From positions 1-39,450 of IMG/VR virus record IMGVR_UViG_3300035145_001365: a DNA stretch of 39,450 bases; one strand, written 5' to 3'. The notes below the pieces were generated by a model. That model saw only the letters and a list, made by a program, of their open reading frames with translations, did no database searches and was not told where the DNA came from. The position numbers were made by a program, and so were the translations under genes. The DNA is from a virus. Of the stretch, positions 1 through 39,450 are shown piece after piece; positions within the stretch are counted from its first letter, which is position 1; every line of letters starts with the position of its first letter.

Positions 1-324
1 TACCTGAGGAACCTGATGAACCTGAAGTACCTGAAGAACCTGAAGAACCACTAGTACCTGAGGAACCTGATGAACCTGAAGTACCTGAAGAACCTGAAGA
101 ACCACTAGTACCTGAGGAACCTGATGAACCTGAAGTACCTGAAGAACCTGAAGAACCACTAGTACCTGAGGAACCTGATGAACCTGAAGTACCTGAAGAA
201 CCTGAAGAACCACTAGTACCTGAGGAACCTGATGAACCTGAAGTACCTGAAGAACCTGAAGAACCACTAGTACCTGAGGAACCTGATGAGCCTGAAGTAC
301 CTGAAGAACCTGAAGAACCATTAG
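1..324 (-). repeat. 54-nt tandem repeat inside fibre gene
   Basis: Six consecutive 54-nt units start at 1, 55, 109, 163, 217 and 271. The first five are identical. The sixth differs at two positions (289 and 321), the second of which turns a Thr-Ser into Thr-Asn. Each unit encodes 18 residues, two copies of the nine-residue GSSGSSGTS motif. The identity indicates recent tandem expansion, or an assembly edge inside a repeat. Confidence 0.93.
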
Positions 325-8269: not shown

Positions 8270-8273
8270 ATTT

Positions 8274-9654: not shown

Positions 9655-12600
9655 TTATAAAGGTAAATCTTGCCATCTAATTGCGTTGTATACATATTTG
9701 TATTTAACATCACCTAAAGCAGTTCCTGAACCATCATCCCAAAAATTACCAATTTTAAAGCTAAGATCAGTGCCTGTGCCAGTGGTGTCTGTAAAATAAA
9801 TTGGGAATTCTTTTATAAGTACTTCAAATACTGTACCTGTAGTACCATTTATTCTAACTTTAGTACCTGTGAATGACACTACATCCATTTCATAGGCATA
9901 ATCATATGAATTTCCACTAAGTTGTGTAAGGTATGGTGTAATTCTAACATTAGCAAAAACATTTACAAACCAATAATTACCACCCCCTGCATTATATCCT
10001 GCTTGGTTAGATTGGACTATAAATATTTTAGTATCAAAATACCAATGTCCTATTTGTTGTCCCGATAAAACATTAGTTAATGTTGATGTAGCTAAATTTA
10101 CAATAGTAGTTCCACCTATAGGTAACCAATTTTCATTTATTGAAGTGCCAGAAGAGCCTGAACTACCTGAGGTACCTGAAGAACCCGAGCTACCACTTGT
10201 TCCACTTGAACCTGAAGAGCCACTGGTTCCTGATGAACCACTAGATCCTGAAGTACCAGATGAACCGCTTGAACCGCTAGTACCACTAGAGCCTGATGAG
10301 CCTGAAGTACCTGATGATCCTGAGCTGCCACTTGTGCCAGAACTACCTGATGAGCCTGAAGTACCACTACTTCCAGAGCTTCCACTGGTACCACTTGAGC
10401 CTGATGACCCACTAGTTCCTGATGAGCCGCTAGTTCCGCTTGAACCTGATGTTCCTGAAGATCCAGAAGATCCAGAGGTTCCAGAGGAACCACTGCTACC
10501 CGATGTTCCACTACTTCCTGAAGAACCTGATGTTCCACTTGACCCACTAGAACCTGAAGTACCTGATGATCCACTTGATCCTGAAGTACCGCTGCTCCCA
10601 GAACTTCCACTAGTTCCACTTGAGCCTGATGAGCCTGAAGTGCCACTACTTCCTGAAGTACCTGATGAACCACTTGAACCACTAGTGCCCGATGAACCTG
10701 ATGAACCAGAAGTACCTGAACTTCCAGAGGAACCGCTAGTACCACTACTTCCGGATGAACCCGAGGTACCTGAACTTCCAGATGATCCTGATGTTCCAGA
10801 TGAGCCTGAGCTTCCACTTGTTCCACTACTTCCGGATGAACCTGAAGTACCGCTGCTTCCTGAGCTTCCACTTGTTCCAGAGGAACCACTAGAGCCTGAA
10901 GTACCAGATGATCCTGATGAACCAGAAGTACCAGATGAACCAGAAGTACCACTTGATCCCGAAGAGCCACTTGTGCCTGAAGAGCCACTGCTTCCTGAAG
11001 TTCCACTAGAACCTGAACTACCTGATGTACCTGAACTTCCGGATGAACCTGAAGTACCGCTGCTCCCACTAGAGCCAGAAGTTCCTGATGAACCGCTACT
11101 TCCACTTGTTCCACTAGAACCCGAGCTGCCCGAGGTACCTGAACTTCCGGATGATCCTGATGTTCCAGATGAACCTGATGAACCTGATGTTCCGCTGCTT
11201 CCAGAGCTTCCTGAGGTACCGGATGAACCACTACTTCCGCTAGTTCCTGAACTTCCTGAAGAGCCACTTGTTCCTGAGCTTCCAGAACTACCTGAAGTAC
11301 CGCTAGAGCCAGAACTTCCACTGGTTCCTGATGAACCACTACTTCCAGAAGTTCCACTACTACCTGAAGAGCCACTTGTACCTGAGCTACCTGATGAGCC
11401 TGAAGTTCCAGATGATCCACTTGAGCCTGAAGTTCCACTGCTTCCTGAACTTCCACTAGTCCCACTACTTCCACTTGAACCTGAAGTACCTGATGAACCT
11501 GAGGTGCCTGAAGAACCACTACTTCCGCTAGTTCCTGAGCTACCACTTGAACCTGATGTTCCCGATGAACCACTACTACCCGATGTTCCACTGCTTCCAG
11601 AGCTCCCTGAAGTACCAGAACTACCACTACTTCCACTTGTGCCACTTGAACCTGATGAGCCTGAAGTTCCTGAGCTTCCAGATGATCCACTTGTTCCTGA
11701 ACTACCTGAAGAACCTGAAGTGCCAGAGCTACCTGATGAACCTGAAGTACCTGATGAACCACTAGAGCCTGAAGTACCACTAGAACCTGATGAGCCTGAG
11801 GTGCCTGACGATCCAGAAGAACCTGATGTACCTGAAGAACCAGAACTTCCACTAGTACCACTAGAACCTGATGAACCTGAAGTACCAGATGATCCACTAC
11901 TTCCAGAAGTACCAGAACTTCCTGATGACCCAGATGTACCACTTGAGCCTGATGAACCACTAGTTCCGGACGAGCCACTGGATCCTGAAGTACCTGAGCT
12001 ACCTGATGAACCTGAGGTACCTGATGATCCACTAGATCCTGAAGTACCTGAGCTACCTGAACTACCTGAAGTACCTGATGATCCACTAGATCCTGAAGTA
12101 CCTGAAGAACCTGAACTACCTGAGGTACCTGAGGAACCTGAGCTACCTGAAGTACCTGATGATCCACTAGTACCAGAACTTCCACTGGAGCCTGAGGTAC
12201 CACTTGAGCCTGAAGAGCCACTTGTGCCCGAAGAACCGCTGCTTCCACTAGTTCCACTACTACCAGATGAACCCGAAGTGCCACTACTTCCTGAACTACC
12301 ACTTGTTCCACTAGAGCCACTAGATCCTGAAGTACCAGAACTTCCTGATGAACCTGAGGTACCACTAGAACCTGATGACCCTGAAGTGCCTGAGGAGCCT
12401 GACGAGCCACTAGTACCAGAAGAGCCTGAACTACCTGATGTTCCACTACTTCCTGAAGAACCTGAAGTACCAGATGATCCACTACTTCCACTTGTACCAC
12501 TTGAGCCTGAAGAACCTGAAGTTCCACTAGAGCCACTAGATCCTGAAGTGCCCGAAGATCCTGAAGAACCACTTGTACCCGAAGAACCAGAACTTCCGCT

Positions 12601-19994: not shown

Positions 19995-22900
19995 TTATTG
20001 TATTCTGTATGAATCTTGTCCTAAAGCTTGTCCAACTTTATTACCATTCATTTCTACTACAATTGGCCTATTTACTACTTGGTTCATTTGTTGAACAAAT
20101 GAAGCCATAATTTGTTTCATTTCTTGAAGTTCTACTTTAAGATCTTCAGTACTTTGAGTTTCTACTTCTTTTTTCTCTTCTTCTTCTCCAAATAATGAAT
20201 CTTTAAATTCTCCTAATTTTTCAAATATAGGAGATATCTTTTCTTCAGGTGATAAACTAGAAGTAATTTTACCGAAAGCACTCATAGCAGCTTCTATAGG
20301 ATTCCCTACTCCCATACTATCCATTAATTTAGTACCTCCCATAATTAAATCATCTTTATTAAATTTAAGAGGGGGTTCACCTGGGCGGAGAATAAAGTCA
20401 TCAAGTTGTTGGGCTTGGGCTATTAAAGTTTCATACCCTACTGTATTTCCTGCTGCTTTAGCAGCATTAGCTTTATCTATAAGATCAGATTTTTGGTTAG
20501 CTTTTAACATACCAAGTACTTGATCAAACTTAGCTTTATCTTCAAGACCTGCTTCGGATAACTCTCTTGTTAAATTATCCATAGCAGCGGTATATTCTTC
20601 TGTAGTAATACCATCTGCTAAAACTTCTGTAAGATCCATTCCTAGATCTTTTAAGCCTTCTTGGAGCTTTTTATCTTCTGTTAATTGTTCTTTAGTTACT
20701 CCTGCTATTGCATCTACTAATCCTGATTCACTTTGCAATCTAGTTGCATCTAAAGTAGTTTGGGCCCCTTTTGCTGTTGCTGCTGTTACATCATCTGTGA
20801 TTCCATATTCAATTTGTTGAGTTACTACTTCTAGTAACTTATTCATTCCCTCTGATGTAGAAATATCTACATCTTCCATAGCAGGACCTGCAAATATTTC
20901 TGAAGCTTGGGACATTGCTGTTGCAATTTCTTCAGCTGTTGCTCCAGTAGCTTTTAGTTTTTCTTGTAATTCAGCTCTGAAGGCGGCAGAATCTGAATCA
21001 GTTCCTGCTAATGCTTCAGATGCAGTTGTATTAATGTAAGAAGAAAGATCATCTGAGTATTTTGTTAATAATTCCGCTGATATTCTTCCACTTTGGTCTG
21101 TGAATGTTTTAAGAACATTAAGTTGTGCATTAACTACGTCTTCATCAACCCCTGCATCTGCAAGTGCTTTTGCTTTAGCTTCATCTCCTAAAGCTTTAGC
21201 GGCTGATAGTGCTGATTCTGTAAGGTTTTTAAGTTTATTTCCTGCTCCTACAGCAGCAGCATTCATAAATTCTAAAGGACTTATAGTTCCTTTTAAAGCA
21301 CCAATAAATTGTTCTTCAGTAACATTACCAGCATTTAGAGCATCAATAGCTAACTCTTTAAATGCTTCACTTGTATTATCTATATCTAGATTTTGTATAC
21401 TTTCAAAAGTAGTTCCAACTCCACCTAATTTTTCAGCAAATTTCTTTTTTTCTTCAATTTCAAGAGCTGCAGCTTTTTTAGTAGCTTCTAATCTCATTTT
21501 AGCAGCAGCAAGAGCAAATTTATCTTGAGCTACTTGAGTTTTTTTCATATTTCTAAGCCTTTCTTTTTGGGCTCTAAACGCGGTAGAATTTATCCACTTT
21601 TGATTTTTTTCATAATCAAAACCGGCTTTAACAACACCTGCTGTAAATCCTACTACCGCTCCAACTGCGGTACCCACAACTGGGATCATGCTACCAATAC
21701 CTGCTCCTATAGCAGTATATGAAGCTACAGTACCTGCGGCTGCTAATGATTCAGCTTTAAGCAACTTATCTTTTTGGGCTTGTATAGCATCCTCTTTAGC
21801 TTGGCCTTCTTCCATTACCATAATTTGGTCATCCATAGCAGATGCTGCTTTTCTAGACTTTTTAGCAAAGTGACTAAATGCGGCTTCAGCTGCCATACCT
21901 GCTGCTGCGAATACTACACCTCCTTTGGCTAATTGGCCTAATGTTTTTCCTATATTAGCTATCTTTCCTACGCCTCCTGCTAATCTACCTGCAGCTTGGG
22001 CAGAACCAGGTCCTGTACCTCCTACAAATGAGGCACCTTGTCCTGTAAGTAATCCTTTACCTGCTCTTAATAATCTAGCTCTACCTACCTTACCGGCACG
22101 ACCTCCTTTAAGGGACATTTTAGCGTAATCAAATAAACCTTTCCATCCTTTTTTAAATCCACCTCCAATTCCAGCTTGTCTTCCTCCACTCCTCATTAGA
22201 TTATTCATTAGGTCACTTCCTCCGCTCCCTCCAACATTCTCGACATATAAAGGATTCTTTTTACTTTCACCTTTTTTACCTTTAAATAAATCCCTTAATC
22301 CTGTAAGACCATCTTTTACATCTTTACCAATTTTAAAGCCTTTAATGGCAACTGGTGCTATGGCAAGTGATATAGCTGCCCCGTCACCTGATAGTAGCTT
22401 TCCTAATTGTGAGTTTTTAAAGAAATCAATAGCTTTTTTAATACCTTCTTTAATAGAATTAAACCCATCTTTAATATCTTGGTATACTTTTTTAATTTTT
22501 TCGGTTAAAGCGTCTATATCGACATTTTCTAATTTGTCTACCATAGAGCTAAGGAAGTTAGCTATGCTTTCAAACACACTTCCAGCATCCGTACCTGTTT
22601 TTTCAACTCCTAAAAGTCGTTCTATTACCCCACCTACTACTTTATAAATGCTACCAAATAATTTTAATACTCCTTGGAATATATTTTTAAGTGCGGGTCC
22701 ACTATTTTTTACAATGTCTACTAAACGTAAACCTACACCATTCATAAATTTACCAAGACGTTCAGCATAAGGTAAAACTTCTTTTTCAAATGCTTTTCCA
22801 CCTTCTCCTACTAGTCCACCAAAGGCATCAAAGAAGGGTTTCATTTGTTCTACAATAACTGCTTTAATGTTTTTAATAATTCCTTCTACTCTATAAAAAG

Positions 22901-25541
22901 CATCAAATACTTTATTAACAGCCGTAGCCATAGCTAATTGAGCATCTGCTATATCTCTTTCTTGTTGAGCTCTTTTTTCTTGTAAAGAAATTTCCCTCAT
23001 TTGATCCTGGAGTGCGTCTGAAGCACCCATTTCTTTCATTTTAGCAAGGGCAGCTTCTTCGGATCCAGTTTCTTTTAGTAATTCTTTAAACTTAGCTTGA
23101 GCATCATTCATGTCATCAAACCCAGTACCTGCTAAAAGTTCTTGGGTTTTAAGCATATTTGCTAATTCATCTCGGCTTACACCTACTGATTTAGCTAATG
23201 CTTCTTGTTGGATAACATTCATTTTACCAAATTCAGCAGCTGATCCAATTTGTCCTGCTACTTCTTTAGCAACTGTGGCTAGATCACCTTGTAAAGCTGC
23301 TGATCTAGCTCTTTCTAGGTTTAAGTCTTTGCCAAGTAATAATTCAGCTTCCATTTCATTAGCAATAGAGCTTTCAAAATCAAGTAAATTACTACCAATA
23401 GCTTCGGTTTGGGCTAAAGATAACCCCATTTTTTTAGCATGGAAAGCGGCTTCTGCTAAACTTTTACCAGATGCTCTAAGTGTTAATTGTTGAGCAGCAC
23501 TTGATTTAGCAATTTCAGCCATTACTTCTTTTTCAGAAATTGCAATGTTATTACGTTCTTTAAGTGCCTGTATTTGTGTTTTATACGTTAATGTAGTGTC
23601 TGATGCTTCCTGACCTGATAATTGTGACAATTTGACAAATTCAGAGGCTTCCTCGTTAGTTAAACCGTATAATTTAGTTAATTGACCAAATGTTTTTACA
23701 GTGTCATCTGAGAATTTTTGAGTAGTGCCAAATGCTTTATTTAATTCTCCTATTCCTGCTGCTAATTCTTCAGGCAACATACCTAAAGAACGACCTATTT
23801 TACTGGCTTGGGTAGTTAATTCTTTAGCATTTTTAGTAGAAACACCTAAACCCGTAGCAAGATCAGCTACAGCTTGAGAAAGTTGTTGGCGTAATTGATC
23901 ACCAACTTTAGCATCGTCTATATAGCTTTGTAAAGAAAAGAATTGGTCTTTAAGATAAGATATTCCCTCTTTAAATTTACCTACAAGATCACTAACAAAT
24001 TTAGTAATAATATTACCTCCAAATGCGCTAAATATAGCTTTAGCTAATTTTTTAGTTAATGCTATTGCTATTCCTATACCTCCTAATGCTTTAAGTTCAG
24101 AAGCCATACCTTTAAAGGTAGCACTAATTCCTTTACCTAATACCCTAAATGAATCTCCTACTTTAGTAACTAATGAATTAGCTTTCCGAGATGCATCTTC
24201 AGCATCAATAGCATCCATTTTAGCTTGTTCTGCTAAATTTTTTCTTTCGTCATACTCTTTTTGTGCTGCCTGGATTTGAGTAGCGCTGCCATTTAGTTTA
24301 GCATCTGTTAATTGTTGTTCAGCATTTTCTAAAGCTTTAGCAGCATCTTCACTAGCTTGTTGGGCAAGTGCTGCTTCACCTCTGGCTTTTTGTCTTCCTG
24401 CTACCAACTCAGCGGCATATTCTTTAGCTGCTTTTGTACCTTCATCTAAACCTAAAACAATAACTTGGTTATCCAATCCAATTTTCTTTAGGATTCCTCC
24501 AGCAGCTCCTAAAGATAAATTCCATAAAGTTTGAGCTCCAACTATTTGGCGAACTCTCTTATTTTCTTCTTTAAGATAATCAACTCCAGTTTCAGATTGT
24601 TTTAAAGCTTTTTCACCTTCAACATATAATTTTTGGTCTGTATCTAATTCCTTTTGTTTTTCTTCTAGAATATCTCTTTGAACATCTGCATTTTCTTGAT
24701 GTAAAGCATATCTTTTAGCTGCCTCTGATCCTGCTTTAAATTCGTCTTTATATTGTTCTTGGGCTTGTTGTTTAGCTCGTTGTCTTGCTAATGCTGTTTT
24801 TTCTACAGTAGTAAGTCCATCTTCATATAAAGTAACTCTTGCCTTAGATCGCTTATATTCTTCTTGAGCAGTTTTTATTTGTTTTTCTGTTCCTGTTTTA
24901 AGGGCTGCTTCATATCTTCTACGTTTTACTTCTTGGTCTTCTTCAAGCTTTTTTATTGCCCCCATTTTGGCATAAAGAGACTGAACATTAATTCCGCTAG
25001 TTTCTACAAACTTATTATACTGGCGTTCGGCTTCTATTTTATTACGTTGAGCCTCAACTATTTTATCCGCGGACTTTTGGTCCTGAGTAGTCATAGTCCT
25101 CCTTTCAGCAGCTAATGTTCTTTCAATGCTGCCTAATTCTTTTTCCGCCTCTAAATATTCTTTAGCTTGTTTTAATCTGTCTTCTCCAAGCTTATTAGCT
25201 ATTACTCCTACGTCTTTTACTAAACGTTCGTGAAGTTCTGTGGCTTTATTTGTGTCTCTTATAGCTTTACCTGCATCTGTGTAAGGGGTAGCGAAATCTT
25301 TAGTTAGATTATTTATTTTAGTAATACTACTAATTAAATCTTTATCAGCTTGTGTAGATTTTTTCTTTTCACCTACTGTATCTTTTATAGAATCTACTAA
25401 TTGAGAAGTACGAGTGGTTAAAATAGATACAAATTCAGTGGATTCCCTTATGCCAGCTTGGTAATCCGCTAGTAACTCGTTACTGTCTCTTTGTAAGTCG
25501 TTAAACCGTGACTGATTATTAATATCTTCTTCAGAAGCCAT
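19995..25541 (-). CDS. Tail tape measure protein (1848 aa)
   Basis: The longest non-repeat gene. Residues 1 to about 450 are charged, heptad-rich coiled coil (for example QKEYDERKNLAEQAKMDAID). Three hydrophobic stretches follow: about 485-510 (GIGIAIALTKKLAKAIFSAF), about 1205-1225 (GGVVFAAAGMAAEAAF) and about 1269-1305 (AIGAGIGSMIPVVGTAVGAV), typical of tape measures that insert into the host inner membrane. A C-terminal coiled coil (LQEMKQIMASFVQQMNQVV) ends with RPIVVEMNGNKVGQAL, a common ending in this family. It follows the gp26-like chaperone or hub genes, as usual. At about 0.15 nm per helical residue it predicts a tail near 280 nm. The start is the ATG at 25539-25541, 27 nt after a strong hairpin. 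Confidence 0.93.
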   Translation of the reverse strand: MASEEDINNQSRFNDLQRDSNELLADYQAGIRESTEFVSILTTRTSQLVDSIKDTVGEKKKSTQADKDLISSITKINNLTKDFATPYTDAGKAIRDTNKATELHERLVKDVGVIANKLGEDRLKQAKEYLEAEKELGSIERTLAAERRTMTTQDQKSADKIVEAQRNKIEAERQYNKFVETSGINVQSLYAKMGAIKKLEEDQEVKRRRYEAALKTGTEKQIKTAQEEYKRSKARVTLYEDGLTTVEKTALARQRAKQQAQEQYKDEFKAGSEAAKRYALHQENADVQRDILEEKQKELDTDQKLYVEGEKALKQSETGVDYLKEENKRVRQIVGAQTLWNLSLGAAGGILKKIGLDNQVIVLGLDEGTKAAKEYAAELVAGRQKARGEAALAQQASEDAAKALENAEQQLTDAKLNGSATQIQAAQKEYDERKNLAEQAKMDAIDAEDASRKANSLVTKVGDSFRVLGKGISATFKGMASELKALGGIGIAIALTKKLAKAIFSAFGGNIITKFVSDLVGKFKEGISYLKDQFFSLQSYIDDAKVGDQLRQQLSQAVADLATGLGVSTKNAKELTTQASKIGRSLGMLPEELAAGIGELNKAFGTTQKFSDDTVKTFGQLTKLYGLTNEEASEFVKLSQLSGQEASDTTLTYKTQIQALKERNNIAISEKEVMAEIAKSSAAQQLTLRASGKSLAEAAFHAKKMGLSLAQTEAIGSNLLDFESSIANEMEAELLLGKDLNLERARSAALQGDLATVAKEVAGQIGSAAEFGKMNVIQQEALAKSVGVSRDELANMLKTQELLAGTGFDDMNDAQAKFKELLKETGSEEAALAKMKEMGASDALQDQMREISLQEKRAQQERDIADAQLAMATAVNKVFDAFYRVEGIIKNIKAVIVEQMKPFFDAFGGLVGEGGKAFEKEVLPYAERLGKFMNGVGLRLVDIVKNSGPALKNIFQGVLKLFGSIYKVVGGVIERLLGVEKTGTDAGSVFESIANFLSSMVDKLENVDIDALTEKIKKVYQDIKDGFNSIKEGIKKAIDFFKNSQLGKLLSGDGAAISLAIAPVAIKGFKIGKDVKDGLTGLRDLFKGKKGESKKNPLYVENVGGSGGSDLMNNLMRSGGRQAGIGGGFKKGWKGLFDYAKMSLKGGRAGKVGRARLLRAGKGLLTGQGASFVGGTGPGSAQAAGRLAGGVGKIANIGKTLGQLAKGGVVFAAAGMAAEAAFSHFAKKSRKAASAMDDQIMVMEEGQAKEDAIQAQKDKLLKAESLAAAGTVASYTAIGAGIGSMIPVVGTAVGAVVGFTAGVVKAGFDYEKNQKWINSTAFRAQKERLRNMKKTQVAQDKFALAAAKMRLEATKKAAALEIEEKKKFAEKLGGVGTTFESIQNLDIDNTSEAFKELAIDALNAGNVTEEQFIGALKGTISPLEFMNAAAVGAGNKLKNLTESALSAAKALGDEAKAKALADAGVDEDVVNAQLNVLKTFTDQSGRISAELLTKYSDDLSSYINTTASEALAGTDSDSAAFRAELQEKLKATGATAEEIATAMSQASEIFAGPAMEDVDISTSEGMNKLLEVVTQQIEYGITDDVTAATAKGAQTTLDATRLQSESGLVDAIAGVTKEQLTEDKKLQEGLKDLGMDLTEVLADGITTEEYTAAMDNLTRELSEAGLEDKAKFDQVLGMLKANQKSDLIDKANAAKAAGNTVGYETLIAQAQQLDDFILRPGEPPLKFNKDDLIMGGTKLMDSMGVGNPIEAAMSAFGKITSSLSPEEKISPIFEKLGEFKDSLFGEEEEKKEVETQSTEDLKVELQEMKQIMASFVQQMNQVVNRPIVVEMNGNKVGQALGQDSYRIQ

Positions 25542-26686: not shown

Positions 26687-27175
26687 TTAGTAATTTAATA
26701 CGCAGTAATCTGGTGCAAGGGTCATTGTGATATTTTGAGCAGCGTTTTCGTTGTCCCAGTTGTAGTCACCAAAGTTAGCATCTACAATAAAGCATCCTTT
26801 CAACACCCACTCAGAAACGATATCACCAACAGGGCCTAAGATATTTAATGTTACGTCCTTCTTGTAGAAGTCAGAGTAACCATCTCTACCTGTTACTGAT
26901 TCGTGATGTAGTCTTACCCATTCCATAATGGTTTGTGTTCCAGAAGGTGAGATAGGATCGTGAAGGGTTAACTGTACGTTACCCCAAGTGGTCTTACCTT
27001 TTACTTTTCTGTATACGTTAATATGATTGAGGACTACTTCTCCTTGTGTCAATGAAATTGCTCCCACACCCTTAATGAAGTACGAAGGTACACCATCAAC
27101 AAGCATGAGGAATCTATTCTGCTGTTTGGGTTCAAACGCTGTAAAAAATATTTCGTTTGGATCTAATACTGCCAT
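26687..27175 (-). CDS. Tail tube protein (gp19-like)
   Basis: 162 residues, close to the 163 of T4 gp19. It begins MAVLDPNEIFFTAFEPKQQN and continues NRFLMLVDGVPSYFIKGVGA, the N-terminal 'F.P....RF.v.vdgi.sy.ik.v..p' pattern of myovirus tube proteins. The middle has GNVQLTLHDPISPSGTQTIMEW and the C-terminus NITMTLAPDYCVLNY. Tube proteins form stacked hexamers inside the sheath. It follows the sheath gene but has its own terminator on each side, suggesting independently tuned, high expression. The start is the ATG at 27173-27175 after a leader of about 110 nt. Confidence 0.88.
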   Translation of the reverse strand: MAVLDPNEIFFTAFEPKQQNRFLMLVDGVPSYFIKGVGAISLTQGEVVLNHINVYRKVKGKTTWGNVQLTLHDPISPSGTQTIMEWVRLHHESVTGRDGYSDFYKKDVTLNILGPVGDIVSEWVLKGCFIVDANFGDYNWDNENAAQNITMTLAPDYCVLNY

Positions 27176-27290: not shown

Positions 27291-29048
27291 TTACGCTGGG
27301 AATTCAGCTCCTGTTGGTAGGAGGTTGAAGTCAAGTACGATAAATTCTGCTGTCTTAACTGGTTGTAGGTAAATAGTGCCTCTTAACTCTTGTCTGTCGA
27401 TTACGTCAGGACCGTTGTTTGAGTCATCCATTATTACCTTAAACGCATACAAACCTTGGTTCTGTTGAACACTTTCTAAGTATGGGTTAACAACACTTAA
27501 GAAGCTATTTCTAGTTTGTAATGTGTTAGGTTCAAAGACGAGGTTCTGAGAAACGTTACCAATAAATGCTTTAAGAGCAATCATTAATCTTCTAACATTA
27601 ACTCTATCAAGTGATGTTGATAGGGATTGTAATGTTTTCTGACCGTATACTACAACACCTGTACCTGGGAAGGTAGCGATTGGGTTGATTTTAGCGGTGT
27701 AAAGATTATCTCTTAATCCACGTGGTAATGTTTTTTCAGGGGCTACTACATTTGGCATAGTACCTCTAGTGAAACCAGCAGGTGCAAACCAGGCTTCAGA
27801 AGTATTATCATTAAAGACATATACTGAAGGGATTACTGTTGAAGCTGGGCACCATACGTTAGCTGCTGTGTTTTCATCGCTTACTAACAACCAAGGCCAG
27901 TATGCAGCTGCATAGTTGGTATTTAAGTTATTAGCTTGTGTAATAGCAGCTGCTGTAGTAGAACCATAAGTTACAATATCAATTGGTAAAATACTATCAC
28001 CTCTAGTAGTTGTATTAGTAATAATATCATCTAATACTGATTTGTGGGATACACCTTCGGTTGCAGTAGTAAATGCATATATAAGACCGGGAACACTAAT
28101 TACATTAAAGTTATATTGATCTTTATTCTTTAATAAATTAACTGATGCTGTGTAGTCTAATGCTGTTACACCTTGTGAGTTAGTAGCTGTGATATCCTTA
28201 TAGTATTTAGTTCCTTCGGAGCCATGGAAAATACTACCAACACCATCACCAAATGAACCACTTTGTGCTTTAGGTAATGAAGAAGTAAATTCTGCTTTAA
28301 AGTTACCAGCACCATCTAAATAATCAGGAGTAGGCTTAAGAACCGTGCTTACAATTACATACTTAGATTTGTTTGGATATTCACCTGTTACTTGAACAAA
28401 TGAATCGTTACCATCTACTCCCACAGTAAATACCTGGTTACCAATTACTTTAGCGATGTAATCATCTCTTTTAGGATCAAGTGATACACCTCTCCAAGAC
28501 TCAAGAATTGTTTTATCAGCTTGTCTATCATTACCTTGTCTAATATTAAGGGTAAAGACACCTGAACCTGAGTCTACGTTAGTGATTTCCCATCTTAAGT
28601 TATCCGCTGAACCTGAAACTAAAGCGTTTCCTGTGGTTTCAGTAGAATCACTGTTTTGGTTTTCACCTTCAGAGATGGTTTGAAGTTTGAATACATTGTT
28701 TACACCTGTACCAGAATTACTACCTGTTACTATAGCTGAAGAAGTAGCTGGTGTAAAATCATTAGATCCACTAGCAACTCTGATCACTGTAAGGCTAGTA
28801 CCTCCTTGCTTAAAGTAGTTTTGAGCTGATATACCAGTAAAGTATGAGTATTCAATACCACCACTAACAACACCTGCACCAAATTTAGTTACGTAATCAG
28901 TGTAAGTAGTTGTTAAGGTAGGAATACCTATAGGTCCTTTTACTGCAGGACCTATTATAGCGGCACCTATGGGTGCTGCCGCTGCCTCAAGGGCTACAGG
29001 AACATTCTCATTCTGGAATACTCCTGGTGAAATTATTTGTTCTGCCAT
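27291..29048 (-). CDS. Contractile tail sheath protein (gp18-like)
   Basis: 585 residues. The N-terminus MAEQIISPGVFQNENVPVA is the 'SPGVxxxExD/N' signature of tail sheath proteins, followed by AAAAPIGAAIIGPAVKGPIG and LTTTYTDYVTKFGAG. The C-terminal domain contains RVNVRRLMIALKAFIGNVSQ and LVFEPNTLQTRNSFLSVVNP, then VIDRQELRGTIYLQPVKTAE, the conserved region that contacts the tube and neighbouring sheath subunits. T4 gp18 has 659 residues, so this is a somewhat shorter version. It is followed by a terminator and preceded by an 18-nt palindrome next to the start codon. Confidence 0.95.
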   Translation of the reverse strand: MAEQIISPGVFQNENVPVALEAAAAPIGAAIIGPAVKGPIGIPTLTTTYTDYVTKFGAGVVSGGIEYSYFTGISAQNYFKQGGTSLTVIRVASGSNDFTPATSSAIVTGSNSGTGVNNVFKLQTISEGENQNSDSTETTGNALVSGSADNLRWEITNVDSGSGVFTLNIRQGNDRQADKTILESWRGVSLDPKRDDYIAKVIGNQVFTVGVDGNDSFVQVTGEYPNKSKYVIVSTVLKPTPDYLDGAGNFKAEFTSSLPKAQSGSFGDGVGSIFHGSEGTKYYKDITATNSQGVTALDYTASVNLLKNKDQYNFNVISVPGLIYAFTTATEGVSHKSVLDDIITNTTTRGDSILPIDIVTYGSTTAAAITQANNLNTNYAAAYWPWLLVSDENTAANVWCPASTVIPSVYVFNDNTSEAWFAPAGFTRGTMPNVVAPEKTLPRGLRDNLYTAKINPIATFPGTGVVVYGQKTLQSLSTSLDRVNVRRLMIALKAFIGNVSQNLVFEPNTLQTRNSFLSVVNPYLESVQQNQGLYAFKVIMDDSNNGPDVIDRQELRGTIYLQPVKTAEFIVLDFNLLPTGAEFPA

Positions 29049-32000: not shown

Positions 32001-32009
32001 TATAAATAT
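32001..32009 (-). promoter_or_regulatory. ATATTTATA element before the neck operon
   Basis: TATAAATAT on the plus strand (ATATTTATA on the coding strand), partly overlapping the stop codon of the upstream gene and 10 nt before the neck gene ATG. It is one of about nine gap copies of this element; others are at 7538, 14534, 19982, 25557, 26598, 26620, 27223 and, with one mismatch, 29100. Confidence 0.35.
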
Positions 32010-32572
32010 TATAAAAGTCGAGTAGAAATTTTAACTGTTGGAGTTTTTGCCCCATCAGCATTAACGGCTTTAATTTCTATACCAGTAGTAGTTAAAGCAA
32101 CTTGAATATCTATATGGTTTGCTTGATCACCAGTTCCAGCGTTACTAAAATCAGTGTAGTCTAAACTACTACCATTAAAACTAGCTAATATAGAACCTGC
32201 TCTTGTACCATTACCGTCATAAATTTGATAATCTGAGTGGGCACTGTGATAATTTATTTCTGTGCCATTTGTTTGACTTCCTGTTGTGATAGTATATAAT
32301 GTAGTAGTAGCACTTACTGCTGCTACACTTGAAGTGACATATGTTAATGGTAATTGTCTCCAACCAATATTAGTTTGTCTATTAGTTTTATCAACAAGTA
32401 CAAAATATTCATGGGAAGAGGTAGCATAAGTAGTAAGGCCATTAAGAGTATTAGCGTTTGTAAAATCTACATTGTCTATACCAAATCTGTATAAGGAAGA
32501 AGTTACCACAAACCTAGCATCTACTGGTTCATCTATTGTTATTTTCCAACCTCCTACTAAATCAAATGCCAT
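32009..32572 (-). CDS. Fibre-associated protein sharing the N-terminal domain of the giant fibre (187 aa)
   Basis: The N-terminus GGWKITIDEPVDARFVVTSS, then LYRFGIDNVDF and EYFVLVDKTNRQTNIGWRQL, aligns with the start of the giant fibre encoded upstream (NNTDPIDARTVVANQTARFG, LYYLTDKTNIGNSAGWTQIE). This domain (DP.DaR.vv....R...........G..vy......ly.LtD.tn....gW.q) is frequent at the N-terminus of phage fibre proteins and probably attaches to the virion. Instead of a collagen-like stalk, this protein carries a 100-residue beta-rich domain ending TPTVKISTRLL. It starts 6 nt after the giant fibre gene stops. Confidence 0.7.
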   Translation of the reverse strand: MAFDLVGGWKITIDEPVDARFVVTSSLYRFGIDNVDFTNANTLNGLTTYATSSHEYFVLVDKTNRQTNIGWRQLPLTYVTSSVAAVSATTTLYTITTGSQTNGTEINYHSAHSDYQIYDGNGTRAGSILASFNGSSLDYTDFSNAGTGDQANHIDIQVALTTTGIEIKAVNADGAKTPTVKISTRLL

Positions 32573-32578
32573 GGTATA

Positions 32579-35500
32579 TTAGTTAAATAGATAGAATGTA
32601 TTATTAGTTACTGGGGAGCTTTGGCTATTTAGCTTATAAACTTTATAAGTTAAACCTCCTGTTGTGCTAACTGTAGATTTAGTAAATGAACTTAATACGT
32701 TAGAACCTTCAGGAGAACCTTGTCTAATAGCTGTTAAATCTCCAACACTATCGTTATAAATAATATAATAGAAAGCATCTACCGTATTAGTTATTACAAC
32801 ATTTGTAGTACCATTATTGATAGTAGTAGTATTAAATTGGATGTTTCCATCTTCTACTTCAGATCCACCTTCCCAAGTATCTACATCTAATAATTCTGCT
32901 GCTGAAAATGAACTACTATTAGCAGAAGCACCTGATCTTAAAGATATTATTCTGCTAAAGGCTTTACTGTTAGTTGTTGAGTCTGTAGAAGGGGTACCAT
33001 TTCCATTTGAATTCCAGTTAGCTGTCAAATTAATAGTATTAGGTGTTCCTGTTTGGTTAATTGTTGTAGTAGCACCATTAGGGGAATCATTTGTTTTTGA
33101 CCATCCATTACTTGTGGTGGGGGCTGTTGCACTATAAGTAATAGATCCTGCAACTCCTTGTTCTATTACTGAGGTACTAGTGCTAGTTGTCCCAGTATTT
33201 GTGGCAAGAGAAGAATCTCCTATTGTAAATGTCCAAGCTGCTGATATTCCTGGGTTATCTGCGTCTTGTTTATTTAGAGTAGTATTACCACTAGTAAGTG
33301 ATGTTAATTCTTTACTAAGTAAAGATCCATCTTCTAATTCTACACATAAGCTAGCTGTAAATAAGTGCGAACCTGAATGTAGATAATCAATATTACTATT
33401 ATTAGTATCTACTGCAAGAGTAGTACTACTAGCTCCTGATACTGATTTAGTGATTTCTGTTATAACTCCATCTATTCTTGTTAATAATGATGAAGATACT
33501 AAAGTGTTAGTAGGATCTAACGTATATTCAAATGTAAATTCATATTCATTATCAATTACATAACTTTGATCTCCGGCAGCATACGGTCCTGTAAATCTGT
33601 TTCTTCTAAAGTATCCAGCACTTGTACCATTACCAATTGTAAATGCTGTTAATGTAGGTTCTGCTGGGGCACCAAATTGTAGTATCAATGTTCCGTTACT
33701 TGAAGTTACAAACACGTTATTGTCAAAATCTATAATTTTTAAAAAGCTTAAATCTAATATGTCAGCAGAACCAGTTTGATATTGTACTGTTGATGAAGTA
33801 CCTGAGCTACCACTGCTACCTGAAGTACCTGATGATCCTGAAGATCCATTAGTTCCACTTGAACCTGATGATCCTGAGGTACCTGATGACCCTGAACTAC
33901 CTGACGTACCTGATGACCCTGAAGAGCCACTTGTTCCTGAAGATCCACTTGATCCATTAGTTCCTGACGATCCTGAAGAACCAGAAGTGCCGCTTGAACC
34001 TGATGAACCTGAAGTACCTGAAGAACCTGATGAGCCACTAGTTCCTGATGAGCCACTTGAACCAGAAGTTCCAGAAGAACCGCTGCTACCTGAAGTACCT
34101 GATGAGCCTGAGCTTCCACTTGTGCCACTTGAACCAGATGAACCACTTGTACCTGATGATCCTGAAGAGCCTGAGGTTCCCGATGAACCTGATGAACCAC
34201 TAGTTCCGGATGAACCGCTTGAACCAGAGGTTCCTGATGAGCCAGATGATCCACTTGTTCCACTACTTCCAGAAGAACCACTTGTACCAGAAGAACCTGA
34301 TGATCCTGAAGTACCTGATGAACCGCTTGAACCTGAAGTACCCGAACTACCTGACGAGCCTGAGGTACCTGATGATCCTGAAGAACCTGAAGTGCCTGAT
34401 GAACCGCTTGAACCTGAGGTACCTGAAGAACCTGATGATCCTGAAGTACCTGATGAACCGCTTGAACCTGAGGTACCTGATGATCCACTAGATCCTGAAG
34501 TGCCACTGCTGCCAGATGAACCACTGGTTCCACTACTTCCTGATGAACCAGATGTTCCTGATGAACCACTGCTTCCGCTAGTTCCACTTGAACCAGAGGA
34601 TCCTGAAGTACCAGATGAGCCACTAGAACCTGAGGTACCAGAACTACCTGATGAACCTGAAGTACCACTACTCCCACTAGTGCCTGAACTTCCACTTGAT
34701 CCACTTGTTCCGCTTGAACCAGAACTTCCGCTTGTTCCTGATGAACCGCTTGAGCCTGAGGTACCACTGCTTCCTGAGCTTCCACTTGTTCCACTTGAGC
34801 CTGAACTACCTGATGTACCTGAGCTACCGCTGCTTCCACTTGTTCCTGATGAACCACTGCTACCACTAGTTCCACTAGAACCTGAAGAACCAGAAGTGCC
34901 AGAACTTCCTGAAGAGCCACTTGTTCCACTACTTCCTGAGGTACCACTTGAACCTGAAGAACCTGAGGTTCCTGATGAACCACTACTGCCTGATGTTCCT
35001 GAACTTCCCGAAGAACCGCTAGTGCCAGAACTTCCGCTAGAGCCTGAGGTACCACTAGAGCCAGATGAACCTGAAGTACCAGATGAACCACTACTTCCAC
35101 TAGTTCCACTTGAACCAGAAGAACCACTTGTGCCTGAAGAGCCGCTTGAACCTGAAGTGCCTGATGAACCACTACTACCAGATGTGCCACTGCTTCCAGA
35201 ACTTCCTGAGGTGCCTGAACTACCAGATGAACCGGATGTACCTGAAGAACCTGAGCTACCTGAGGTACCTGAGCTTCCTGAAGTACCTGAAGATCCACTT
35301 GAACCAGATGTTCCTGAGCTTCCAGATGATCCTGAAGTACCTGATGATCCTGAAGAACCTGAAGTACCTGATGAACCACTAGAGCCTGAGGTACCTGATG
35401 AGCCTGAGCTTCCACTTGTACCGCTTGAACCAGATGAACCACTTGTACCTGATGATCCTGAAGAGCCTGAAGTTCCACTGGAACCTGAGCTTCCTGAAGT

Positions 35501-38227
35501 ACCGCTACTTCCTGATGAACCTGAAGTGCCACTGCTTCCACTAGAACCAGAAGTTCCTGAAGAGCCACTGCTTCCACTAGTTCCACTAGAGCCCGAGCTA
35601 CCAGACGTTCCTGATGAGCCGGATGAGCCACTAGTTCCTGATGAACCTGATGTTCCACTACTTCCAGATGAGCCACTTGTACCGCTTGACCCACTAGATC
35701 CAGAAGTACCGGATGATCCTGAACTGCCTGAAGTTCCACTTGAGCCAGAGGAACCTGAAGTGCCTGATGATCCTGATGAGCCACTTGTACCGCTTGAACC
35801 AGACGAACCCGAAGTACCTGATGAGCCGCTAGATCCTGAAGTACCTGAGGAACCTGATGTGCCACTACTTCCACTACTACCAGATGTTCCACTACTTCCA
35901 CTAGTCCCTGATGAACCACTTGAACCTGAGGTACCACTAGAACCTGAGCTTCCACTAGTACCAGATGATCCACTACTACCTGAAGTTCCACTACTACCTG
36001 AGCTACCGCTGGTTCCACTACTTCCACTTGAACCCGAAGTACCTGATGAACCTGAACTACCACTTGTTCCAGAACTACCTGATGAGCCGCTAGTTCCGGA
36101 TGAGCCTGAACTGCCTGATGTACCACTTGAACCCGAGCTGCCACTTGTTCCAGAACTTCCTGAAGAACCTGATGTACCTGATGATCCACTTGAACCACTA
36201 GTACCACTAGATCCAGATGAACCTGAAGTACCTGATGAACCACTAGTTCCTGAGCTTCCAGATGACCCAGAAGTTCCTGATGAACCCGATGATCCTGAAG
36301 TACCAGACGATCCTGATGAACCTGATGTTCCACTGCTTCCACTTGAACCTGAGGTGCCTGAACTACCAGATGAACCACTTGTTCCACTACTACCTGAAGT
36401 ACCACTTGAACCTGAGCTTCCTGAAGTACCTGAAGAACCTGAGGAGCCACTAGTGCCAGAGGAACCACTAGAGCCTGAAGTGCCACTTGATCCTGAAGAG
36501 CCACTAGTTCCACTACTTCCTGAAGAACCTGATGTACCACTGCTTCCAGATGACCCTGAAGTGCCAGATGAGCCACTGCTCCCACTAGTACCTGATGATC
36601 CAGAGGAGCCTGATGTTCCTGAGCTACCTGAACTACCTGAAGTACCTGATGAACCACTTGAACCTGAAGTTCCGCTGCTACCTGATGATCCTGAAGTGCC
36701 AGATGAACCACTAGAGCCACTGGTACCAGATGAACCACTTGTTCCAGATGAGCCTGATGATCCACTAGTACCCGAACTACCAGATGAGCCTGATGTACCC
36801 GAAGAACCACTTGAGCCTGAAGTGCCACTTGATCCTGAAGATCCAGAGGTGCCCGAGCTACCAGATGAACCAGATGTTCCTGATGAACCACTACTTCCAC
36901 TAGTTCCGCTTGAGCCTGAACTACCTGATGTTCCTGATGATCCGCTTGAACCTGAAGTACCTGATGATCCTGAGGTACCTGATGATCCGCTTGAGCCAGA
37001 TGTTCCTGAACTTCCTGAAGAACCTGAAGTACCACTTGAGCCCGATGACCCCGAGGTGCCTGAGCTACCTGAGCTACCTGAAGTACCTGAAGAACCACTG
37101 CTTCCACTAGTGCCTGAACTTCCAGAACTTCCTGATGTTCCTGAACTTCCACTTGAACCACTTGTTCCTGAAGAGCCAGATGAGCCCGAAGTACCAGATG
37201 ATCCACTGGAACCACTAGTACCACTACTTCCTGATGAACCACTAGTACCTGATGATCCACTAGAACCTGAGGTACCTGATGAACCGCTCGAGCCAGATGT
37301 ACCTGAACTTCCTGAAGAACCTGATGTACCTGATGAACCACTAGACCCTGAAGTACCAGAGCTTCCTGAAGAACCAGATGTTCCTGATGAACCTGAACTT
37401 CCACTAGTACCGGATGAACCGCTTGATCCAGATGTTCCAGAACTACCAGATGAGCCACTGGTTCCACTAGATCCACTACTTCCACTAGTTCCTGAACTGC
37501 CAGAGCTACCTGAAGTACCCGAACTACCTGAAGTACCTGATGAGCCACTTGAACCTGAGGTACCTGAGCTTCCTGATGAACCTGAGGTACCTGAGCTACC
37601 TGAGCTACCTGAAGTACCTGATGAACCGCTTGAACCTGAAGTACCCGAACTACCTGAAGTACCTGATGAGCCACTTGAACCTGAGGTACCTGAGCTTCCT
37701 GATGAACCTGAGGTACCTGAAGAACCTGATGAACCCGAGGTACCTGATGATCCTGAGCTACCTGAGGTACCTGAAGAACCTGATGAACCCGAAGTACCTG
37801 ATGATCCTGAGGAACCTGAAGTACCTGATGATCCTGAGGAACCTGAAGTACCACTAGAGCCTGATGAGCCTGAGGTACCTGATGAACCTGAAGAACCTGA
37901 AGTACCTGAAGAACCTGACGAACCATCTGTACCTGAAGACCCTGAAGAACCCGAAGTACCACTAGAACCCGATGAACCCGAAGTACCACTAGAACCTGAT
38001 GAACCTGAGGCTCCTGCCTCTATTTGAGTCCATCCTGCTGAATTTCCTATGTTAGTTTTGTCTGTAAGATAGTATAATTCTTCTACATCTTCTTGATAAA
38101 CAATTAATCCTTCGTAAGCAACAGCAACATCAATTCCAAATCTGGCAGTTTGATTAGCAACCACAGTCCTAGCATCAATAGGATCTGTATTGTTAATATT
38201 AAAGCCTTCTGGGAATGTTACTGCCAT
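32579..38227 (-). CDS. Giant collagen-like tail fibre protein (1882 aa)
   Basis: Residues 1-70 form the attachment domain (FPEGFNINNTDPIDARTVVA to GWTQIEAGASG). About 1408 residues of Gly-X-Y repeat follow (38018-33793), nearly all GSSGSSGTS, with single-triplet deletions in several places; Asp or Asn replaces Ser only near the two ends. The C-terminal 400 residues start with GTSSTVQYQTGSADILDLSF and contain FDNNVFVTSSNGTLILQFGA, several Ser/Thr-rich beta domains, and end FYYIIYNDSVGDL ... LTYKVYKLNSQ. The C-terminal region is clearly related to that of the partial gene upstream. Role by architecture: virion base, long stalk and distal receptor-binding head. A fully extended collagen-like stalk would be about 400 nm. 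No autocleaving chaperone was recognised. Confidence 0.87.
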   Translation of the reverse strand: MAVTFPEGFNINNTDPIDARTVVANQTARFGIDVAVAYEGLIVYQEDVEELYYLTDKTNIGNSAGWTQIEAGASGSSGSSGTSGSSGSSGTSGSSGSSGTDGSSGSSGTSGSSGSSGTSGSSGSSGTSGSSGSSGTSGSSGSSGTSGSSGSSGTSGSSGSSGTSGSSGSSGTSGSSGSSGTSGSSGSSGTSGSSGTSGSSGSSGTSGSSGSSGTSGSSGSSGTSGSSGSSGTSGSSGTSGSSGSSGTSGSSGSSGTSGSSGSSGTSGSSGSSGTSGSSGSSGTSGSSGSSGTSGSSGSSGTSGSSGSSGTSGSSGSSGTSGSSGSSGTSGSSGSSGTSGSSGSSGTSGSSGSSGTSGSSGSSGTSGSSGSSGTSGSSGSSGTSGSSGSSGTSGSSGSSGTSGSSGSSGTSGSSGSSGTSGSSGTSGSSGSSGTSGSSGSSGTSGSSGSSGTSGSSGSSGTSGSSGSSGTSGSSGSSGTSGSSGSSGTSGSSGSSGTSGSSGTSGSSGSSGTSGSSGSSGTSGSSGSSGTSGSSGSSGTSGSSGSSGTSGSSGSSGTSGSSGSSGTSGSSGSSGTSGSSGSSGTSGSSGSSGTSGSSGSSGTSGSSGSSGTSGSSGTSGSSGSSGTSGSSGSSGTSGSSGSSGTSGSSGSSGTSGSSGSSGTSGSSGTSGSSGSSGTSGSSGSSGTSGSSGSSGTSGSSGSSGTSGSSGSSGTSGSSGSSGTSGSSGSSGTSGSSGSSGTSGSSGSSGTSGSSGSSGTSGSSGSSGTSGSSGSSGTSGSSGTSGSSGSSGTSGSSGTSGSSGSSGTSGSSGSSGTSGSSGSSGTSGSSGSSGTSGSSGSSGTSGSSGSSGTSGSSGSSGTSGSSGTSGSSGSSGTSGSSGSSGTSGSSGSSGTSGSSGSSGTSGSSGSSGTSGSSGSSGTSGSSGSSGTSGSSGSSGTSGSSGSSGTSGSSGSSGTSGSSGSSGTSGSSGSSGTSGSSGSSGTSGSSGTSGSSGSSGTSGSSGSSGTSGSSGSSGTSGSSGSSGTSGSSGSSGTSGSSGSSGTSGSSGSSGTSGSSGSSGTSGSSGSSGTSGSSGSSGTSGSSGSSGTSGSSGSSGTSGSSGTSGSSGSSGTSGSSGSSGTSGSSGSSGTSGSSGSSGTSGSSGSSGTSGSSGSSGTSGSSGSSGTSGSSGSSGTSGSSGSSGTSGSSGTSGSSGSSGTSGSSGSSGTSGSSGSSGTSGSSGSSGTSGSSGSSGTSGSSGSSGTSGSSGSSGTSGSSGSSGTSGSSGSSGTSGSSGSSGTSGSSGSSGTSGSSGSSGTSGSSGSSGTSGSSGSSGTSGSSGSSGTSGSSGSSGTSGSSGSSGTSGSSGSSGTSGSSGSSGTSGSSGSSGTSGSSGSSGTSGSSGSSGTSGSSGSSGTSGSSGSSGTSGSSGSSGTSGSSGSSGTNGSSGSSGTSGSSGSSGTSGSSGSSGTSGSSGSSGTNGSSGSSGTSGSSGSSGTSSTVQYQTGSADILDLSFLKIIDFDNNVFVTSSNGTLILQFGAPAEPTLTAFTIGNGTSAGYFRRNRFTGPYAAGDQSYVIDNEYEFTFEYTLDPTNTLVSSSLLTRIDGVITEITKSVSGASSTTLAVDTNNSNIDYLHSGSHLFTASLCVELEDGSLLSKELTSLTSGNTTLNKQDADNPGISAAWTFTIGDSSLATNTGTTSTSTSVIEQGVAGSITYSATAPTTSNGWSKTNDSPNGATTTINQTGTPNTINLTANWNSNGNGTPSTDSTTNSKAFSRIISLRSGASANSSSFSAAELLDVDTWEGGSEVEDGNIQFNTTTINNGTTNVVITNTVDAFYYIIYNDSVGDLTAIRQGSPEGSNVLSSFTKSTVSTTGGLTYKVYKLNSQSSPVTNNTFYLFN
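33793..38018 (-). repeat. Collagen-like GSSGSSGTS array, about 1408 residues
   Basis: The largest array in the window. Near the N-terminal end, long exact blocks repeat: a block starting at 37509 recurs at 37635 (126 nt, 14 Gly-X-Y triplets). The centre (about 34500-37400) is codon-shuffled with little exact repetition. The stretch 37737-37891 is identical to 13598-13752 in the other giant fibre gene. Confidence 0.93.
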
Positions 38228-38228
38228 G

Positions 38229-39450
38229 TTATAGTGATGTTATTTTATATGTTACAGCTGAAGTACCTTGTTGTCCGGTTCTAAATACTTTAAATCCTTC
38301 GCTTCCTACGATATTAGAATAAGTAGCTACTAAAGGCATTGTAATTGGTGAATTATTTACAGTAATTGTAGGAGTATCACTTATAATATTACTTTTTACT
38401 ATAATGTAATGATAATCTAAACTATTTCCTTGAATTGTTAAATTTTCATTTAATGGGTTTTCATCATTAACACTAGATGTTTGAAATCCTTCATTATCTA
38501 AGAATACTATATCCAATAAATTGGCTTGTGTTAAGCTTGCTGCTGAAGCTGCCCCCCATTTAAATGTAAATACTCTATCCACAGTATAGGTTCTATTAGT
38601 TGTAGTATTAATTTGAGGATCATTATCACCAGCAGGGGATTGCCAGTAGTTTGATAAAGCTACGGCAGGAGTATTAACCCCTCCCGCTAAACTAATTCCT
38701 GGGGGTGAAGGATCATCATTAGATATATAAACTGATTCCCAGCTATTTGCAGAATTAGATTGTGAAGTATAAGTTATACTACCTGTTGCTCCTACATTTA
38801 CTCTTAAGTTACTGCTATTTGTAGAGCCCCCTCCTTGAACTCCACTATAATCAGCTGTTAAACTAGGATTACCTGGGGAGGTTTTATCTAGAGTTAATGT
38901 AATTTCGTCTTGTGTAGTAAATCTACTACTATCTGCTAATATAACAGATAAACTAGCAGTAACTACATGACTACCAGAAGCTAATGAGGGATATGCTGTT
39001 GAATTTACAGTAATACTTTGAGGTGAACCTCCTGTAAAAGTAGCTATTTCTACAGAATTTGTAATAAATGATCCTGAATCTAAAGTAGTTGTGTTTAAAT
39101 CAAATGAAAAATCTAGATCATAGGTATCGTTTACTTTATTAAATCTATTAGTTTCAAATACATCATCAGTTAAACTTAAACTTTGGGGAATAGAAGGAAC
39201 ACCAAATTGTAAAATTAATTGATCCCCACTAGAAGTTACAAATACATTTCCATCAAAATCTTTAATAGTTAACCCTGCTAAATCTTTAAATCCAGCAGAT
39301 CCTGTTTGATATTGTACTGTTGATGAAGTACCTGATGATCCTGAACTGCCCGAGGTACCTGATGAACCACTAGAACCTGAAGTACCTGATGATCCTGAAC
39401 TGCCCGAGGTACCTGATGAACCACTAGAACCTGAAGTACCTGATGATCCT
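38229..39450 (-). CDS. Collagen-like tail fibre protein, N-terminus beyond right edge (partial)
   Basis: The frame is open from the right edge through to TAA at 38229-38231. A GTG at 38580-38582 could be mistaken for a start, but the frame continues upstream through THR-rich and beta-rich sequence to the repeat GSSGTSSTVQYQTGSAGFKD. I checked the codons between 38583 and 39302 and found no stop. The C-terminal 360 residues parallel the next gene: STVQYQTGSA, FDGNVFVTSSGDQLILQFGV, ASGSHVVTASLSVILADSS, a FTFKWGAA segment and a final YHYIIVKSNI ... EGFKVFRTGQQGTSAVTYKI. This is therefore a tandem paralogue with its stalk cut by the window edge. It ends one nucleotide before the next gene starts. 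Confidence 0.85.
   Translation of the reverse strand, partial: GSSGTSGSSGSSGTSGSSGSSGTSGSSGSSGTSGSSGSSGTSSTVQYQTGSAGFKDLAGLTIKDFDGNVFVTSSGDQLILQFGVPSIPQSLSLTDDVFETNRFNKVNDTYDLDFSFDLNTTTLDSGSFITNSVEIATFTGGSPQSITVNSTAYPSLASGSHVVTASLSVILADSSRFTTQDEITLTLDKTSPGNPSLTADYSGVQGGGSTNSSNLRVNVGATGSITYTSQSNSANSWESVYISNDDPSPPGISLAGGVNTPAVALSNYWQSPAGDNDPQINTTTNRTYTVDRVFTFKWGAASAASLTQANLLDIVFLDNEGFQTSSVNDENPLNENLTIQGNSLDYHYIIVKSNIISDTPTITVNNSPITMPLVATYSNIVGSEGFKVFRTGQQGTSAVTYKITSL
39331..39450 (-). repeat. 54-nt tandem repeat at right edge (start of collagen-like array)
   Basis: The unit starting CCTGATGATCCTGAACTGCC recurs at 39331, 39385 and 39439, exactly 54 nt apart with no mismatch. It encodes two GSSGSSGTS motifs per unit, and the window ends inside the third copy. 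Confidence 0.92.

Follow-up and report, generated by a model that had tools for sequence, protein, structure and literature searches.

Introduction

Collagen helices are usually held together by proline or by ion pairs. Phage fibres with collagen-like stalks have already been described, as have proline-free GTS/GSS repeats in Burkholderia. Among the former, the fibre protein EPclA is trimeric and its collagen domain melts at 42 °C (PMC3368898). For most of the Bucl collagen regions of Burkholderia, including that of the GTS/GSS protein Bucl3, a host-guest algorithm yields 20-35 °C (PMC4565658), and the GTS repeats of the Bcc proteins are predicted to be disordered (PMC10224339). Here we analyse a viral sequence of 39,450 nucleotides (positions 1 to 39,450 of IMG/VR record IMGVR_UViG_3300035145_001365, hereafter the window), whose fibre genes carry proline-free arrays of the GSS/GTS kind.

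Results

Proline-free Gly-X-Y arrays in five fibre genes

A six-frame scan of the window revealed six Gly-X-Y arrays, all on the minus strand and spread over five fibre genes:

33794-38014, minus strand: array A5, (GSS GSS GTS)n, the fibre 4 stalk; 469 triplets, 1,407 aa, proline-free
10141-14064, minus strand: array A3, the fibre 3 stalk; 1,308 aa, proline-free
3649-4521, minus strand: array A2, in fibre 2; 291 aa
767-1378, minus strand: array of fibre 1; 204 aa
5-463, minus strand: array of fibre 1, cut by the window end; 153 aa
39324-39449, minus strand: end of the fibre 5 array, cut by the window end; at least 42 aa

Together they occupy 10,215 bp, corresponding to 26% of the window, and contain no proline. 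An earlier note on this DNA had reported glycine at every third position over about 1408 residues at 33793-38018, about 1304 at 10143-14055 and about 290 at 3645-4515, with partial runs at both window ends and a total of about 10 kb or a quarter of the window, all of which was recovered within a few residues, as listed above. Its description of stalks of 1300-1400 residues in five fibre genes was right as to the number of genes, but such lengths were reached in only two of them. Likewise, its statement that X and Y are almost only Ser or Thr held in a stricter form than claimed, as Y is Ser in 99.2% of the window triplets and Thr is confined to X. The stalks are thus very long and proline-free as the note had proposed, and ordinary imino-acid stabilisation is absent.

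The arrays match the Pfam Collagen family (PF01391) at 4e-191, with a score of 619 against a cut-off of 27, a composition-driven match that reflects the glycine periodicity. Over long stretches every third residue is glycine, as is characteristic of this family; as the shafts lack proline and are nearly without charged residues, neither Pro/Hyp nor ion pairs are available to them, and we make no claim that they belong among the classically stabilised collagens.

The repeat unit is the nonapeptide GSSGSSGTS, i.e. (GSS GSS GTS)n. Successive GTS triplets are separated by two GSS in 147 of 161 segments of A5 and in 141 of 149 segments of A3, and the distance between threonines in the long arrays never exceeds nine residues. 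Runs of three or more triplets with Ser at X were never observed, whereas 109 would be expected from composition when the window arrays are shuffled, so that the regularity lies well outside what chance would give. Only four triplets of A5 are neither GSS nor GTS, each of them close to the array ends. Residues 31-1350 of A5 form 440 consecutive triplets with glycine at every third position and without a single non-consensus triplet, and the same is true of residues 94-1308 of A3 (405 consecutive triplets).

Fibre genes and their surroundings

The fibre genes and those of their end domains that could be delimited are as follows:

1-1528, minus strand: fibre 1 gene, open at the window end; two arrays around a 101-aa island; Pfam Collagen 9.6e-52
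2152-5433, minus strand: fibre 2 gene, 1,093 aa, containing A2; Pfam Collagen 1e-39
9655-14520, minus strand: fibre 3 gene, containing A3
14065-14520, minus strand: fibre 3 N-terminal domain, 152 aa; 38-88% identity in relatives L129, L130, L133 and L123
9655-10140, minus strand: fibre 3 C-terminal domain, 161 aa; no relatives found
32579-38227, minus strand: fibre 4 gene, containing A5
38015-38227, minus strand: fibre 4 N-terminal domain, 71 aa; related to the N-terminus of ORF 32009-32572 (tblastn)
32579-33793, minus strand: fibre 4 C-terminal domain, 404 aa; predicted beta-rich with low confidence
38229-39449, minus strand: fibre 5 gene, open, N-terminus missing; C-terminal domain paralogous to that of fibre 4

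Fibres 4 and 5 are tandem paralogues whose C-terminal domains are 31% identical. Using tblastn, eight homologues of the fibre 4 C-terminal domain (39-54% identity) were detected at the same locus in relatives; searches for relatives that started from the heads of fibres 2 and 4 were empty or brought up just a second contig of the same virus. AlphaFold yielded a weak model of the fibre 4 head (pLDDT 58.5), for which Foldseek returned only insignificant Ig-like matches and no PDB match at E 0.001. A beta-helix tailspike was considered for the fibre 2 head and dropped (AlphaFold pLDDT 37.2). Pfam scans of the window's own fibres found neither Peptidase_S74 nor another known trimerisation domain, and neither PF15984 (Collagen mid-region) nor a Talin-1-like flanking domain.

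The fibre 4 N-terminal domain is probably the virion anchor. The adjoining 187-aa protein at 32009-32572 (minus strand) also has an N-terminal domain of the fibre 4 type, and this likeness suggests a common attachment module. Long open frames, rich in proline and of the form (PEEPDEPEV)n, lie on the plus strand antisense to the arrays (10145-14095 and 33987-38027). They were rejected as genes, their flanks being unconserved and the constraint lying in the minus frame; they are shadows of the Gly/Ser codons and a trap for gene callers.

Sheath, tube, wedge, hub and tape measure genes sit between the fibre genes and make up the structural module of a contractile tail:

27291-29048, minus strand: tail sheath (phrog_23, 9e-60)
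26687-27175, minus strand: tail tube (phrog_4542, 2e-24)
19995-25541, minus strand: probable tail tape measure, 1,848 aa (35% over 232 aa to the tape measure of Flavobacterium phage immuto)
17816-18124, minus strand: baseplate wedge subunit (phrog_7145, 2e-12)

For the tape measure, distant matches were obtained with Microcystis phage Mel-JY01 and with Flavobacterium phages of the immuto group. At 7550-8933 (minus strand), two neighbouring proteins have a common N-terminus matching the baseplate wedge-tail fibre connector family phrog_677.

A second contig repeats the long arrays

Contig IMGVR_UViG_3300042731_002917 (28,606 bases) is 99.996% identical to the window over positions 10788-35541, without gaps and with a single differing base, at 30190. 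Its other end covers the remainder of A5 with nine differences, all in one 34-bp patch. The two are probably, though not provably, independent assemblies. As the long arrays are repeated wherever the second contig covers them, an assembly artefact, which the earlier note had named as a possible refutation, is unlikely.

Synonymous codons are saturated while the protein is fixed

The interiors of the long arrays comprise residues 31-1350 of A5 and 94-1308 of A3, together 2,535 codons. All their triplets are GSS or GTS, neither GTS-GTS nor GSS-GSS-GSS occurs, and the sole irregularity is the loss of a single GSS. Between codons nine residues apart, synonymous differences were found in 703 and 744 of 1,041 pairs, whereas amino-acid differences were confined to the spots where a GSS is missing. 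Same-codon frequency between units equalled that of codon shuffles at nearly all lags, the AGY share of serine codons was 0.31-0.39 in the arrays versus 0.33 in the other genes of the window, and the interiors of A3 and A5 showed no codon homology to each other at any of 401 offsets tested (best z 3.3). Synonymous sites of the interiors, including the choice between TCN and AGY serine, are saturated and stand at the equilibrium of the genome.

From the zero changes we estimate a dN/dS below roughly 0.001. This bound counts some two non-synonymous sites in each codon, takes every synonymous site to have changed at least once, and assumes that the units have evolved separately since saturation. 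Even Ser and Thr at X, only one base apart, have kept their places. Since gene conversion homogenising the protein would homogenise the DNA as well, this points to selection on the protein text; nor can slippage or recent duplication explain synonymous codons at equilibrium together with fixed amino acids. The exact repeat is under strong selection at the protein level. This coupling of codon saturation with strict protein conservation had been overlooked in the earlier note.

Turnover of the arrays

In A3 and A5 codon similarity is raised over the first ~200 residues, and near the 5' ends the two arrays have an exact match of 155 bp, as against a longest match of 47 in 50 codon shuffles. The short arrays bear tandem footprints, seen as an excess of identical codons between positions 18, 36 and 45 residues apart. 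In the patch that distinguishes the second contig from the window (37853-37886, minus strand, 34 bp) all differences are synonymous, one of them being an AGT to TCA serine switch, and the alternative version of the patch occurs one to two units away at 37832 and in fibre 3 at 13693. The patch looks like an exchange between units or genes, albeit a single event in a stretch of low divergence where an assembly error is possible, and such exchange is one way for serine to swap codon sets without a non-serine step.

We infer that the shafts may grow through tandem duplication, near the 5' ends and in the short arrays, that unit loss and synonymous patch exchange would follow, and that selection would purge changes to the Gly register or to the Ser/Thr pattern. 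Duplication at the ends combined with purging selection would leave an interior that is old as DNA but letter-perfect as protein, and the scrambled DNA would make a long repeat less liable to collapse by recombination. A negative correlation between array length and tandem DNA identity was discarded: choosing the best of many lags gives a noisier statistic when arrays are short, and long arrays of identical units are lost in short-read assembly.

Related arrays and their dialects

A search with the sheath protein brought up related contigs by the hundreds, and 80 of these were retained; Gly-X-Y arrays were present in 15 of the 83 loci of sheath and tape-measure relatives. At the fibre 4 locus of relatives, where the C-terminal domain is homologous (39-54% identity), the triplet dialect varies: it is GTD GTD GTS in L133, GSS GTS with a few GIS/GVS in L131, GTD/GTS/GTN in L273, and GSS GSS GTS in L280, with GAD in the adjoining gene. 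These arrays contain one proline in total. In the sheath relatives, which were not selected for the repeat, X is Thr in 49% and Ser in 44% of triplets, and Y is Ser in 79%, Asp in 17% and Thr in 2%.

A DNA pattern of four units matched at least 119 stretches in IMG/VR, and 125 viral loci were analysed (119 from the pattern and six from the tape measure). Arrays were found in 113 of them, the longest of 1,836 aa, with 124 prolines per 73,368 residues. The 26,955 triplets outside the window, a biased set since most were picked with a GTS-containing pattern, have Thr (53%) or Ser (38%) at X and Ser (82%) at Y, with GTS outnumbering GST 43 to 1. Fibre genes of one contig had a median triplet-usage distance of 0.09 versus 0.22 overall, a difference reached in none of 2,000 permutations, the window and the megaphage being excluded. 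The fibres of one contig thus have a common proline-free dialect, and related phages use others. The 735-kb phage record LR756501, which surfaced through a DNA query with a scrambled array, has an ORF of 3,488 aa with three proline-free GTS/GSS arrays (735, 921 and 669 aa). The notion of arrays exceptional to one phage is not supported; array-bearing fibres are a widespread and apparently undescribed class.

Peptidase_S74 (the endosialidase chaperone) is present on 17 of 62 complete C-termini of array-bearing ORFs elsewhere, and proline triplets (GPQ, GPP, GPT) stand in register with GSS/GTS in 17 of 125 array-bearing ORFs. In the fibre-3 homologue L123:9647-12529 (961 aa), three in-register copies of the classical collagen motif GPPGKPGNNGAS interrupt the GSS/GTS shaft.

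Searching phage records with a whole fibre by tblastn gave no match, in all likelihood through masking of the repeat by the low-complexity filter, and the tblastn-confirmed scan of bacterial genomes was empty, probably from the same masking. Scanning bacterial genomes with the DNA pattern did yield arrays, for the most part (GTS)n and (GTT)n runs that were not as long, with Burkholderia as a notable source. Such proline-free arrays occur in many bacterial phyla (L138-L255; Burkholderia, Streptomyces, Rufibacter, Paraburkholderia), reaching 315 aa in Paraburkholderia (L206) and, in a GTT-rich form, 969 aa in a betaproteobacterial bin (L147). Many contigs of relatives stop inside an array (L129-L133, L262, L264, L267, L280). 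Short-read assemblies seem to lose such fibre genes systematically, which would explain why these shafts are under-recorded.

Discussion

We consider it reasonably probable (about 60%) that the arrays serve a contractile-tailed phage as shafts of virion fibres that are trimeric and collagen-like, of the polyproline-II type. In each fibre gene the Gly-X-Y shaft would then lie between an N-terminal domain that anchors it to the virion and a C-terminal head with a probable role in host binding. With a rise of ~0.29 nm per residue, as in collagen, the two long shafts would measure ~0.40 and ~0.37 µm. A three-chain shaft is favoured by the Peptidase_S74 domains and by the in-register proline triplets found elsewhere in the class. 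Peptidase_S74 is, we assume, the family to which the chaperone of the T5 fibre pb1 belongs. This intramolecular chaperone of a trimeric fibre is itself trimeric (PMC4690869). Standing in register, proline triplets and GSS/GTS appear as if they were interchangeable parts of one fold. Against a collagen-type trimer, the shafts are proline-free and nearly uncharged, no known trimerisation domain was recognised in the window's own fibres, the head models of fibres 2 and 4 are weak, the Bcc GTS repeats are predicted to be disordered (PMC10224339), and the 20-35 °C predicted for most of the Bucl regions (PMC4565658) would make stability marginal at best.

GSS/GTS resembles engineered flexible linkers, and the arrays might instead be disordered Gly/Ser tethers of entropic kind, or a hydrated brush, that let the heads sample a large volume without an ordered fold. 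Their lack of proline and near lack of charge would suit this, as would the disorder predicted for Burkholderia GTS repeats (PMC10224339). We nevertheless hold it unlikely, since a linker needs composition and not register, whereas the Gly register has been kept over 2,535 codons, Thr has stayed at X only and no more than two GSS have come to lie between GTS despite synonymous saturation, and classical-collagen proline triplets stand in register within arrays of the same kind. The tandem footprints of the short arrays, and the closer resemblance of codons towards the 5' ends of A3 and A5, are what neutral low-complexity DNA, arising by slippage or recent duplication with no selection on the repeat, would leave behind. 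For the array interiors this is already refuted by codons at equilibrium with zero amino-acid changes, and the agreement of the second contig speaks against an assembly artefact, so that neutral origin and artefact together have hardly any probability left.

An ordered fold other than collagen, with chains side by side as polyglycine-II-type helices, had been put forward in the earlier note. Such packing is established in the gp38 tips of phage S16 and in the snow-flea antifreeze protein, and glycine at every third position without proline suits it. However, these bundles fold back by turns, and with 440 consecutive triplets lacking a turn-like break a self-folded bundle is disfavoured and only an intermolecular one fits; since chaperone domains of trimeric kind elsewhere in the class suggest that three chains are involved, we give this fold a very slight probability. 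O-glycosylation may otherwise stabilise or functionalise the shafts, the dialect being the recognition site of a phage or host modifying enzyme common to all fibres. One dialect is indeed used across the genes of a contig even though the codons of A3 and A5 are independent, and threonines recur within nine residues throughout the long arrays. In Riftia cuticle collagen threonine is found at Y. BclA-type collagens are glycosylated (PMC8968730), but Thr sits at X here and at Y in Gram-positive bacterial collagens (PMC8968730), and by this analogy glycosylated Thr is not favoured by its position. Furthermore, no glycosyltransferase was seen in the tail module of what is a fragmentary contig, and we regard this explanation as improbable. 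A further possibility, tentative and less likely than not, is that the arrays form a distinct class of ordered phage shaft and that one agent common to all fibres of a virion, be it a chaperone for assembly, an enzyme that modifies them or the packing of shafts side by side, recognises the dialect in the protein. Such recognition would explain one dialect per phage, including the distinction of Ser and Thr at X, despite codon drift, along with the different dialects of related phages.

What is new here, in comparison with the described fibres and repeats, is how long and strict the arrays are, that Thr is placed inversely to Gram-positive collagens, that uncultured phages have such arrays so broadly and in several dialects, and that saturated codons go together with a fixed protein. 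No phage paper with the motif GSSGSSGTS was found among 5.4 million open-access texts, while database annotation or subscription journals may have it. The arrays amount to an extensive collection from nature of shafts that are very long and have neither proline nor ion pairs; should these form triple helices, what is held to stabilise collagen needs to be extended and a simple proline-free biomaterial of one repeat exists. They also offer thousands of selected serine sites for studying the switching between TCN and AGY, an unsettled matter in molecular evolution, as well as a natural case of a long repeat that is scrambled as DNA and not as protein.

Comparison with known systems

The polyglycine-II sandwiches of S16 gp38 and the snow-flea antifreeze protein consist of short helices joined by turns, whereas 440 and 405 triplets run unbroken in the window. 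Closer in anatomy are the collagen-like phage tail fibres (EPclA/B of E. coli O157:H7 prophages; phrog_1806, 'collagen like minor tail'), which likewise have a Gly-X-Y shaft between non-collagenous domains; the EPcl shafts, however, comprise ~50-190 aa with Pro at X and charged residues, while those of the window reach 1,407 aa and are proline-free and nearly uncharged. The collagens of Firmicutes (BclA, Scl) also have Gly-X-Y stalks, mostly without prolyl hydroxylation, but with Pro at X and Thr at Y (48% in Gram-positives, PMC8968730), the position of Thr being inverted in the window arrays. Nearest in composition are the Burkholderia Bucl3/Bcc collagen-like proteins, proline-free GTS/GSS repeats with Thr at X and Ser at Y as here (PMC4565658, PMC10224339). 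These are bacterial adhesin-like proteins of 38-63 or up to 83 triplets with other flanking domains rather than phage fibres, and a strict nonapeptide such as that of the window has not been described for them. Among phages, LR756501 has proline-free GTS/GSS arrays like those reported here, although they are dominated by GTS and another of its ORFs mixes in GPQ/GPT.
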